The notes: a model not told the origin generated them from the letters alone. Positions 33,846 to 36,716 are shown, counted from the first letter of the stretch. The stretch: 38,535 bases of DNA from a virus (IMGVR_UViG_3300020061_000014:1-38535); one strand, 5' to 3'. A program made the numbers and translations.

Positions 33846-34952
33846 ATGGCATTGTTTATCGCGGACCTTCCCGAGATTATCACCCCCTATATCGAGGCCA
33901 ACGAACCGGTGCAGATCGCCTCTGCACCGGGCGTCGGCAAGAGCGAGAGCATCGACCAGATGGTCGCTGGCTACTCGCAACGCGACGGCTTCGAGTGGGG
34001 TCTCTGCAAGCTGTTCATTGCCGCCCTCTCGACGGTCGACATGTACGGCTTCCTCGTGCCCGGCGAGACAACGTGGATGGACTTGGAAGGCAAGTCGCAC
34101 ACCACCCGCATCAGCGAGTTCACCATGCCGCCATGGATGATCTCGGTGACCGGCAAGCCGATGAACGCTTATAAGCGCGGCGTCGTCGTGTTTGAGGAAT
34201 GGGACAAGGGCGACCCCGATACCAAGAAGGCGTCGGCCGAGCCCATCCTGAACGGGGCGCTGGGACGGCACCGCCTGCACAAGGGGATCAGCCGCGTCGT
34301 GCTGGTCAACCGCGTCGAGGATCGCAGCGGCACCACTCGCAACTTCGACTTCATTATCAATCGTCGTGGCGAGCTCACCTTCATGGCCAGCATGAACGGC
34401 TGGCTCAAGTGGGCGATGACCCGCAACGTCGACCCGATCTTCACGTCGTTCGCCGAGCGCTACCCGCAGGTCGTGTTCACCAACAAGGTGCCTGACGTGC
34501 AAGGTCCGTTCGTCACGCCGCGCTCGCTGGTCAAGACCAACAACGTGCTGAGCCAGCGCCGCAAGGACGGTGACATCGTGATCGACGATACCGCCAACGC
34601 CATCGCGCTGGGCTTCCTCGGCACGTCGGCAACGGCCCAGCTGATGGCATGGCTCAAGGTCAAGACCGAGACGCCGGCATGGGACAAGATCATCGCTGAT
34701 CCCGAGCACGTCGACGTGCCCGAGCGTGCCGATGCCTGCCTGATGTCGTGCCACGAGTGCGCGCACCGGGTCGAGCTCAAGACGGTCGGGCAGGTGATCC
34801 GCTACATGCGGCGGATGCCCAAAGAGTTCGCCATGACCTTCGCCCAGGCAGCGGTGCACCGCATGCCTCGGCTGATCGCAGACCGCGAGATGATCGCATG
34901 GTCGCGCGAGAACCGCTCACTGCTCAACATCATTGGTGGGGGGAGGCGATGA
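33846..34952 (+). CDS. MoxR-type AAA+ ATPase
   Basis: A 368-residue protein with AAGGAG nine bases upstream of the ATG. Walker A is APGVGKSE (27-34), in the 'APGxGKS/T' form of MoxR-like ATPases, and Walker B is VVVFEEWDK (113-121). Sensor and arginine-finger candidates follow (LVNRVEDRSG around 153-162; NRRGE around 172-176). MoxR-type ATPases act as chaperones that insert metals or remodel partners and are usually encoded next to a VWA-domain protein; exactly this pair is present, with the VWA/metallopeptidase gene three genes downstream. Role in the phage unknown. Confidence 0.87.
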   Translation: MALFIADLPEIITPYIEANEPVQIASAPGVGKSESIDQMVAGYSQRDGFEWGLCKLFIAALSTVDMYGFLVPGETTWMDLEGKSHTTRISEFTMPPWMISVTGKPMNAYKRGVVVFEEWDKGDPDTKKASAEPILNGALGRHRLHKGISRVVLVNRVEDRSGTTRNFDFIINRRGELTFMASMNGWLKWAMTRNVDPIFTSFAERYPQVVFTNKVPDVQGPFVTPRSLVKTNNVLSQRRKDGDIVIDDTANAIALGFLGTSATAQLMAWLKVKTETPAWDKIIADPEHVDVPERADACLMSCHECAHRVELKTVGQVIRYMRRMPKEFAMTFAQAAVHRMPRLIADREMIAWSRENRSLLNIIGGGRR

Positions 34953-35143
34953 GCATCAAGGACAACCCCGAAGATTGGGCCCTGCTGCATCACGCAGTGG
35001 GCCTCTTGGAAGGTCTCGCCAGCAAGTATGGCGTGATCGACGTGCTGATCTACTACGACGACATCGCTGTGAAGATAACCCCGGGAGTTAGAAAAGATGG
35101 CAAAGGCGAACCGCGTGTTGACGGTGGAGCTCCGTCTGCTTGA
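34949..35143 (+). CDS. Small hypothetical protein
   Basis: A 64-residue protein from ATG 34949 (ATGA overlap, GGGGAGG upstream), starting MSIKDNPEDWALLHHAVGLL. A family A palindrome lies in frame at 35076-35090 and encodes ITPGV; everything after it (RKDGKGEPRVDGGAPSA) overlaps the next gene. It looks as if the palindrome has replaced the original end of the gene. It lies between the MoxR gene and the VWA gene. Function unknown. Confidence 0.6.
   Translation: MSIKDNPEDWALLHHAVGLLEGLASKYGVIDVLIYYDDIAVKITPGVRKDGKGEPRVDGGAPSA
35076..35090. repeat. Family A palindrome inside a gene end, leading the next gene
   Basis: TAACCCCGGGAGTTA, read as ITPGV in the 64-residue gene and providing GGGAG before the ATG at 35097. 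Confidence 0.82.
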
Positions 35144-35312
35144 CGTAGACGACGAGCAACACGAAGCCTGCAAGGAACTTACCACTAACCTCGCCAAGGA
35201 CCTGCACGCTGCGGCCACTCTCCTCTGTGGGAGTGGCTCGCGGCCCAAGGTCTATCACTACGGCGAGGCGTACAACATCGACATCGGCAAGCTGGCCGAT
35301 AAGGAGGGCTAG
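35097..35312 (+). CDS. Small hypothetical protein in the MoxR-VWA cluster
   Basis: A 71-residue protein (MAKANRVLTVELRLLDVDDE at the start). GGGAG in the family A palindrome lies about ten bases upstream of its ATG. Strand-helix-strand order (LTVELRLL; CKELTTNLAKDLHAAATLL; PKVYHYGEAYNIDI). It overlaps the gene before by 47 bases and abuts the VWA gene. It may be a small partner of the MoxR-VWA pair; no evidence beyond position. Confidence 0.68.
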   Translation: MAKANRVLTVELRLLDVDDEQHEACKELTTNLAKDLHAAATLLCGSGSRPKVYHYGEAYNIDIGKLADKEG

Positions 35313-36716
35313 ATGCCACACCTGATCAACATCAGCGAGAAGATCGCATTGACCCCAGCCCAGCAGCAGATGTGGGAGGAAACTCTCACGCTGTTCAGCT
35401 GGGATGCGTGCGCCTTCACGCACTGCCTATATGACCTGTTGAACCCCGACGGAGGCCGCGCCGTCGCGACCTTCTTGGGGCCTAACAAGGTCCCCGAGTG
35501 GTTCATTGCCGGGACCAACGGCAAGCGCCTGTTCCTCGTGGCCGAGCGGTTCTTCGCCATCGACCTCAAACGAAGAATTTTCGTTCTCGCTCACGAGGTA
35601 TGCCACCCCATGCTGGGCCACGTCGTGTCCAGTCAATACTACCGGCAGAAGGGCGAGATCGATCTGGGCTTCAAGAAAATGCCCTACATCGACGAGATCG
35701 CCGGGTTCGCGCAGGACTTCGTCATCAACGACATGCTGGTTGAGAGCCGCATTGGCACGTTCCTAGAGACAGGGCTGCACGACAAAAAAATCGGCACATA
35801 CATGGACAGCTGGATCGACGTCTACGAACGGCTGCTCAAGGAGTGTGAGAAAGGCAAAGGCATGGGCGAGGGCGTACTGGAAGGCAATGGCGAGCCCGAC
35901 CCCAACGCGCCACCCCAGAAGCCCACTCGGGGGAAGGGTCAGCAGTTCGACTTCCATATGCCATTCGGTGAAGGAGAGAAGAAACCCGGCAATGGCGGCG
36001 AAGGCGAACATGACGAGGTTATGGGGCCGGACGAGCCGATCACGCAAGAGCAGATGTTAAGTGAAATAGAAAAGGGGCAGCAAGCGGCAGCGGCGGGCGT
36101 CGAGCTCGCGCGCTCTCGCGGGCAGCTGCCTCTGGCGCTGGAGAAGTTTGCCGAGAAGGTGCTCGAGCCGGTCATCGACTGGACCGAGCACCTGCGGTCC
36201 AACTTCCATCGCCGGCTGGGGACCGGGGGCTACGACTTCCGTCGCCCCGATCGCCGGCTGATCACCCGCAACATCATCGCACCCGGCAGGTCCGGGTTCG
36301 GCTGCGAACTGGTGATCCTGGGTGCCGATAGCTCGGGCTCGATCTACGCCGTGCCTCAGCTGATCGAGCGCTGGATGGGCGAGTGCTCGGGCGTGATGGA
36401 AGACGTGCGACCGCGCGAGGTCCACGTCGTGTGGTGCGATGCCAAGGTGCAGCGGGTTGACATTTTGTCAGACCCCGCTGACGTGCAGGACATGTTCTAC
36501 AAGGGAGCCAAGGGCGGCGGCGGCACGAAGTTCTGGCCGGTGTTCGAGTACGCTGCCCAGCTTGGTCGGCAGGTCGACTGCATGGCCTATCTGACCGACG
36601 GCGACGGTGAGTTCCCTGACGAGGCACCGCCCTACCCCGTGATCTGGGGCTCGATCAAAAACCCACCGGAGGACTATCCCTTTGGTGACGTCGTCATGAT
36701 CCCCGTGCCCGCTTAA
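35313..36716 (+). CDS. Metallopeptidase-like/VWA-domain protein
   Basis: A 467-residue protein with two parts. The N-terminal ~150 residues carry HEVCH at 94-98 (HExxH of zinc metallopeptidases, after the helix RRIFVLAHEVCH). A Pro/Gly/Lys-rich linker (about 185-245) follows. The C-terminal half has the VWA metal-ion-dependent adhesion site DSSGS at 339-343, with T405 and the D429 segment (TDGDGEF) in the expected later positions. Proteins with a putative metallopeptidase plus VWA domain are known as companions of MoxR ATPases, which agrees with the gene at 33846. AAGGAGGGC precedes the ATG. The TAA stop begins the family A palindrome at 36714-36728. Substrate and role unknown. Confidence 0.88.
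   Translation: MPHLINISEKIALTPAQQQMWEETLTLFSWDACAFTHCLYDLLNPDGGRAVATFLGPNKVPEWFIAGTNGKRLFLVAERFFAIDLKRRIFVLAHEVCHPMLGHVVSSQYYRQKGEIDLGFKKMPYIDEIAGFAQDFVINDMLVESRIGTFLETGLHDKKIGTYMDSWIDVYERLLKECEKGKGMGEGVLEGNGEPDPNAPPQKPTRGKGQQFDFHMPFGEGEKKPGNGGEGEHDEVMGPDEPITQEQMLSEIEKGQQAAAAGVELARSRGQLPLALEKFAEKVLEPVIDWTEHLRSNFHRRLGTGGYDFRRPDRRLITRNIIAPGRSGFGCELVILGADSSGSIYAVPQLIERWMGECSGVMEDVRPREVHVVWCDAKVQRVDILSDPADVQDMFYKGAKGGGGTKFWPVFEYAAQLGRQVDCMAYLTDGDGEFPDEAPPYPVIWGSIKNPPEDYPFGDVVMIPVPA
36457..36471. repeat. Family B-like sequence inside the VWA gene
   Basis: TTGACATTTTGTCAG in coding sequence, without a nearby gene start; could be a chance or decoy site. Confidence 0.45.

Follow-up and report, generated by a model that had tools for sequence, protein, structure and literature searches.

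A homologue of the phage N4 gp24/gp25 pair in a non-N4 phage group, with a conserved small gene that appears to stand in place of a DUF3150-like gene

A cassette of closely packed genes at positions 33846-36716 of the virus sequence IMGVR_UViG_3300020061_000014:1-38535 (the window, i.e., the whole 38,535-nt stretch of DNA that was analyzed) quite probably encodes a MoxR/VWA remodelling machine of the kind represented by gp24/gp25 of phage N4, an estimate that concerns the nature of the machine and leaves its target aside. Judged by sequence, the ATPase and the DUF2201 protein of this cassette are homologues of N4 gp24 and gp25, and pairs of this kind have long been known. The pair itself is no novelty, as PMC4193335 and PMC7650795 already describe gp24/gp25 as core genes of N4-like phages without known function. 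What appears to be new is a conserved small third component, its replacement of a DUF3150-like protein, and the constancy with which the pair occurs in a phage group other than N4. For core genes of a well-studied family, whose function has stayed unexplained for over a decade, such an exchangeable third component would offer a concrete handle on what the pair does. The features of the region are as follows.

33846..34952, plus strand: MoxR-type AAA+ ATPase, 368 aa, N4 gp24 homologue (phrog_1297)
33924..33947, plus strand: Walker A motif of the ATPase, APGVGKSE, residues 27-34 (no variation at G31 and K32 among 101 homologues)
34182..34199, plus strand: Walker B motif of the ATPase, VVVFEE, residues 113-118 (with Glu, E117, where Asp is usual)
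34949..35143, plus strand: first small gene, 64 aa, with a start that overlaps the stop codon of the ATPase gene (ATGA)
35097..35312, plus strand: second small gene, 71 aa, third cassette member, conserved in the window's clade
35313..36716, plus strand: DUF2201 protein, 467 aa, N4 gp25 homologue (phrog_1314)
35592..35606, plus strand: HExxH motif of the DUF2201 protein, HEVCH, residues 94-98 (H103, D135 and N139 also conserved)
36327..36341, plus strand: MIDAS DxSxS motif of the DUF2201 protein, DSSGS, residues 339-343 (completed downstream by T405 and D429)
36731..37528, plus strand: 265-aa gene between the DUF2201 gene and the DNA polymerase gene, of uncertain cassette membership
37506..38535, plus strand: 5' portion of a gene for a family A DNA polymerase, an open frame to the window end; a neighbour outside the cassette

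All four cassette reading frames lie, to the base, where a first-pass annotation of the window had placed them, and the tight cluster that it described is real: the genes overlap or abut (ATGA at 34949; stop codon TAG directly before the ATG at 35313), and GGAG-like ribosome-binding sites precede their starts. The motifs that it had named, a Walker A at residues 27-34 of the ATPase as well as HEVCH and DSSGS in the fourth protein, were found at exactly these and the above-listed residues. Comparison with locus L080 yielded dN/dS values of ~0.3 for the ATPase, ~0.27 for the VWA gene and ~0.1 for the second small gene, and this purifying selection indicates that these three are not chance frames. 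The described small viral genome calls for correction, as the window is a 38.5-kb fragment and near full-length relatives measure 57-64 kb. A nucleotide search of the phage collection with the window gave no match.

The assignment of the first gene product as a MoxR-type ATPase is borne out by both structure and profile comparisons. Its single-chain structure model (pLDDT 95) has as best fold matches NorQ bound to the VWA domain of NorD (9qh7; Z 14.3, with 216 residues at 4.0 A) and CbbQ (Z 14.0), on a par with AAA modules of dynein (Z 14.3). When a profile built from 62 homologues was compared with the PDB, it matched midasin, CbbQ, NorQ and CobS. The fold is closest to the NorQ/CbbQ/dynein-midasin clade, as for MoxR AAA+ ATPases, and the model contains two predicted strands (residues 70-78 and 84-92) where the MoxR helix-2 insert is expected. 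The protein matches phrog_1297 ("ATPase") at E 2e-47; at curated cut-offs, Pfam AAA_5 and AAA_3 are found in 26/62 and 6/62 homologues, respectively, and neither is found in the window's protein. All 101 homologues share G31 and K32 of Walker A, N155 of sensor 1 and the Arg finger R173, and sensor-2 R226 is retained in 100/101. Walker B position 117 is Asp in 96 and Glu in 5 of the 101 homologues, Glu being the residue in the window and in loci L080, L081 and L104; this substitution may alter the activity of the window's ATPase.

The description of the 467-aa partner as a metallopeptidase-like/VWA protein is equally upheld, by PF13203 DUF2201_N (55.9 bits, cut-off 23.2) and PF09967 DUF2201 (73 bits, cut-off 26.4), both above their curated cut-offs; it also matches phrog_1314 (E 3e-57). 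A metallopeptidase-like domain is followed by a Gly/Pro/acidic linker (approximately residues 180-245, of low confidence in a model with overall pLDDT 83) and by a C-terminal VWA domain, the fold of which was recognized in residues 300-467 (Z ~13). To our knowledge, the zincin-like N-terminal domain of this protein is absent from NorD/CbbO. The MIDAS residues D339, S341 and S343 are present in 101/101 homologues, T405 and D429 in 100/101 each. Given the near-invariance of the catalytic residues, neither ATP hydrolysis nor the MIDAS seems to be expendable. Destruction of the predicted active sites in close relatives, named in the first-pass annotation as an outcome that would refute its reading, is not observed: the sites are kept, with the exception of HExxH, which is lost in one distant lineage (see below). 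In RefSeq and PHROGs, homologues of gp25 (in N4 itself, L003:11164-12306) carry the name "HNH endonuclease", a label contradicted by their domains (DUF2201_N and DUF2201); it looks like a propagated annotation error, which conceals the nature of these proteins.

The two proteins travel together across a broad range of viral loci. A single-protein search of viral contigs produced no match, and broad alignments held no conserved stretch to search with; three scans of viral contigs, in which two- and three-row alignments were used, yielded loci L013-L114. A total of 104 DUF2201 loci, phage records included, formed 58 clusters at 70% identity. The ATPase gene is present beside the DUF2201 gene in 58/58 clusters and precedes it on the same strand in all but one of them (57/58), the exception being L074, with an unusual arrangement and weaker matches. 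A DUF2201 gene was also present in 14/14 relatives searched as whole records. Among 50,697 phage records (tblastn, E 1e-5), 205 contain a relative of the ATPase and 309 a relative of the DUF2201 protein; when the window/Rhizobium alignment was run against bacterial genomes, no relative was found. A candidate ATPase without a VWA gene (L096) was rejected, because its frame passes into unrelated sequence inside the ATPase, so that the contig looks chimeric. In a 178-kb viral contig (L108), an apparent second, diverged ATPase/VWA set (330-5617) lies upstream of the main pair (7920-10870).

With respect to N4, both proteins match phrog_1297/phrog_1314, the genes being close together on the same strand with the ATPase first, and families, order, strand, catalytic and MIDAS residues are shared, at identities of 15% (ATPase) and 25% (DUF2201). 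The window differs from N4, which has no third gene between gp24 and gp25, and, apart from the pair, no gene matches convincingly between the two. Matches to Rhizobium phage RHph_TM3_14A were obtained for the window's DNA polymerase (phmmer, to DNA polymerase I of that phage, E 4e-61) as well as for its capsid, portal, terminase and internal virion protein, and the virus groups with this phage and metagenomic relatives of ~60 kb, not with N4-like phages. RHph_TM3_14A contains the same cassette (EVB41_051/EVB41_055; 37% and 44% identity for the ATPase and the DUF2201 protein), with a 71-73-aa gene and then a DNA polymerase gene, although three small genes are annotated between its pair vs. two in the window. 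An N4-type RNA polymerase (RNAP2 or PF00940) was found in 0/13 relatives of the window's group, the window itself being a fragment, while N4 and N4-like controls matched. Being common to distinct phage groups, one of which is devoid of N4 RNA polymerases, the pair is not tied to the N4 transcription scheme; its equally fixed presence in this group uncouples its function from N4 transcription and points to DNA replication/recombination. We found no literature on experiments with N4 gp24/gp25 and none joining MoxR with Schitoviridae or with DUF3150; the accessible text of a CRISPRi-ART study mentions N4 for rII genes only.

The composition of the middle of the cassette varies between lineages. 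Synechococcus phage MinM2, other viral contigs and a Burkholderia plasmid have the same flanking pair with a third gene between, which there is a DUF3150-like gene of ~290 aa, whereas in the window's clade this position is taken by an unrelated protein of 71-85 aa. Relatives of the second small gene lie between the ATPase and DUF2201 genes in 24-26 loci of this clade, with one match each in 11/12 near full-length relatives; no convincing Pfam or PHROG family was identified for it. The 71-aa family and the DUF3150-like gene never occur together in one locus, and a profile comparison of the two families revealed no similarity. In a tree of the ATPases, the clade of the window, which comprises 21 rows and has support 100/99, is nested among DUF3150 carriers and includes one such carrier, L067. 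This topology is consistent with a swap of the third component close to the base of the window's clade, where the second small gene would stand in place of the DUF3150-like protein. The earlier suggestion that both small genes could be adaptors thus survives in part: as a conserved cassette member, the second is a plausible adaptor, whereas the first (64 aa) has no homologue among the loci compared, L080 included. Extending this idea, the cassette could be a three-part machine dedicated to replication, in which a constant MoxR/DUF2201 core is combined with a target-defining middle adaptor swapped between lineages, a reading that we regard as rather speculative; if true, one ancient engine would have been re-aimed via either a DUF3150-like or a new 71-85-aa adaptor. 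In the plasmid case (L116:3756-7026, a Burkholderia cenocepacia conjugative plasmid), the ATPase/DUF3150-like/DUF2201 triad lies directly before a type IV secretion operon.

The genomic neighbourhood was assessed in 56 non-redundant loci representing 14 clades by counting all gene families (named after the RHph_TM3_14A annotation) up to 8 kb away from the DUF2201 gene. Besides the ATPase (56/56 loci) and the DUF3150-like gene (18 loci, 8 clades), the most frequent neighbours across clades are a DNA polymerase of family A (36 loci, 6 clades, in this count without exception downstream), a RecB-family exonuclease (22 loci, 5 clades), an SNF2 helicase (16 loci, 5 clades) and VRR-NUC (13 loci, 4 clades). 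The polymerase belongs to family A in 21/22 records; it lies ~10 kb downstream of the pair in N4, on the opposite side in the L106 lineage, and is absent in 8 clusters whose flanks are long enough to include it. The cassette heads a replication/recombination module. This arrangement supports, and does not prove, a functional tie, since the neighbours are mutually linked and the loci share ancestry; the polymerase linkage may reflect shared expression time alone. The 265-aa gene at 36731-37528, which belongs to no known family, is fast-evolving (34% identity to L080) and weakly conserved at this position in 19 loci.

The mode of action can be approached by analogy with characterized MoxR/VWA pairs, of which NorQ/NorD is the best understood: the ring drives the VWA partner, and the target, gripped by the MIDAS at an acidic patch, is remodelled through ATP hydrolysis (PMC9976466). 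NorQ forms a hexameric ring, the pore of which is plugged by the VWA domain of NorD, and the MIDAS is required for activity while being dispensable for ring binding (PMC9976466). NorQ/NorD and CbbQ/CbbO share with the window an ATPase (theirs are the closest solved folds) and a VWA partner with MIDAS (PMC9976466), although the window's pair lacks a known metalloenzyme or Rubisco target. By this analogy, the cassette most likely specifies a NorQ/NorD-like, ATP-driven machine serving phage replication. The ATPase would assemble into a hexameric ring on which the DUF2201 protein would dock via its VWA part; the MIDAS metal, possibly together with the zincin-like N-terminal domain, would grip the target, and ATP hydrolysis would change the conformation of this target or dismantle a complex containing it. 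The 71-aa protein would act as a clade-specific adaptor or regulator, the successor to the DUF3150-like protein. As the cassette heads replication and recombination genes, the target is best sought in that apparatus or in a displaced host factor; a phage replication or recombination protein is a possible, still tentative, candidate.

A role in host takeover or counter-defence, with the machine taking apart a complex of the host (e.g., one involved in defence, or the host polymerase), appears unlikely, even if it is the least so among the alternatives. MoxR/VWA pairs power some bacterial conflict systems (PMC7159879), the pair occurs on plasmids as well, and 4/62 ATPases weakly match bpMoxR. 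Nevertheless, none of the four cassette proteins has a match in PADLOC, none of the third components of conflict systems (VMAP, inactive STAND, FtsH, beta-propeller) was recognized in the cassette, and conservation across the N4-like and the window's groups points to a core function and away from a variable counter-defence gene. Of the targets given as examples in the first-pass annotation, a polymerase agrees with the neighbourhood, while the PADLOC result goes against a defence complex and no sign of a membrane target was seen.

A virion assembly chaperone, remodelling a structural protein (tail or internal virion protein), is rather improbable, even though its precedent, p618/p892 of the archaeal Acidianus two-tailed virus (ATV), is likewise a virus-encoded MoxR/VWA pair and the only viral one found with experimental data: the two interact physically, p892 raises the ATPase activity, p618 binds virion proteins, and a role in tail development is assumed (PMC4124505). 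The fold matches of viral origin include ATV ORF892, and in phage RPP1 a second structural module is located near the gp24/gp25 homologues (PMC4193335). The resemblance has its limits, since p618 is itself a virion protein and p892 is a weak fold match (E 2e-4), while the virion proteins of RPP1/RLP1 listed in the accessible part of PMC4193335 include no gp24/gp25 homologue. Moreover, the same source assigns N4 gp24/gp25 to the middle, not late, genes, and the window's cassette lies with replication genes, away from the structural genes, which this virus carries on the minus strand.

About as doubtful is an ATP-driven protease, in which the HExxH domain would cleave a target delivered by the ring (e.g., in processing of phage or host proteins), although this can be compatible with the remodelling machine favoured above. 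A complete HExxH motif is present in 97/101 DUF2201 homologues, H98, H103 and D135 are each found in 100/101 (H103 and D135 as possible extra ligands), and profile searches gave matches to M48 peptidases. These matches are weak and below significance, and no fold family was matched by residues 1-300 of the model, a stretch barely covered by the fold search. In addition, one lineage (L106:12201-13439, L107:12048-13262, L109:12048-13262) has QNxxH in place of HExxH yet retains H98, H103, D135 and the entire MIDAS, and this loss suggests that peptidase catalysis is dispensable there. Insertion of a metal cofactor into a phage or host enzyme, as by NorQ/NorD or cobaltochelatase CobS/CobT, is very unlikely, as no metalloenzyme gene is prominent among the frequent neighbours across clades, notwithstanding NorQ, CbbQ and CobS among the nearest solved folds or profile matches and the ribonucleotide reductase genes downstream of the pair in Vibrio phage pVa5.

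An FtsH-type ternary conflict system involving a second ATPase gene of the window (26778-28298) was considered and found no support, this gene being unmatched in all other fetched loci. It encodes a classical AAA+ ATPase of 506 aa (phrog_10440, E 4e-122), the AAA domain of which is closest to proteasome-activating nucleotidase/FtsH, with weak matches to IetA and nSTAND.
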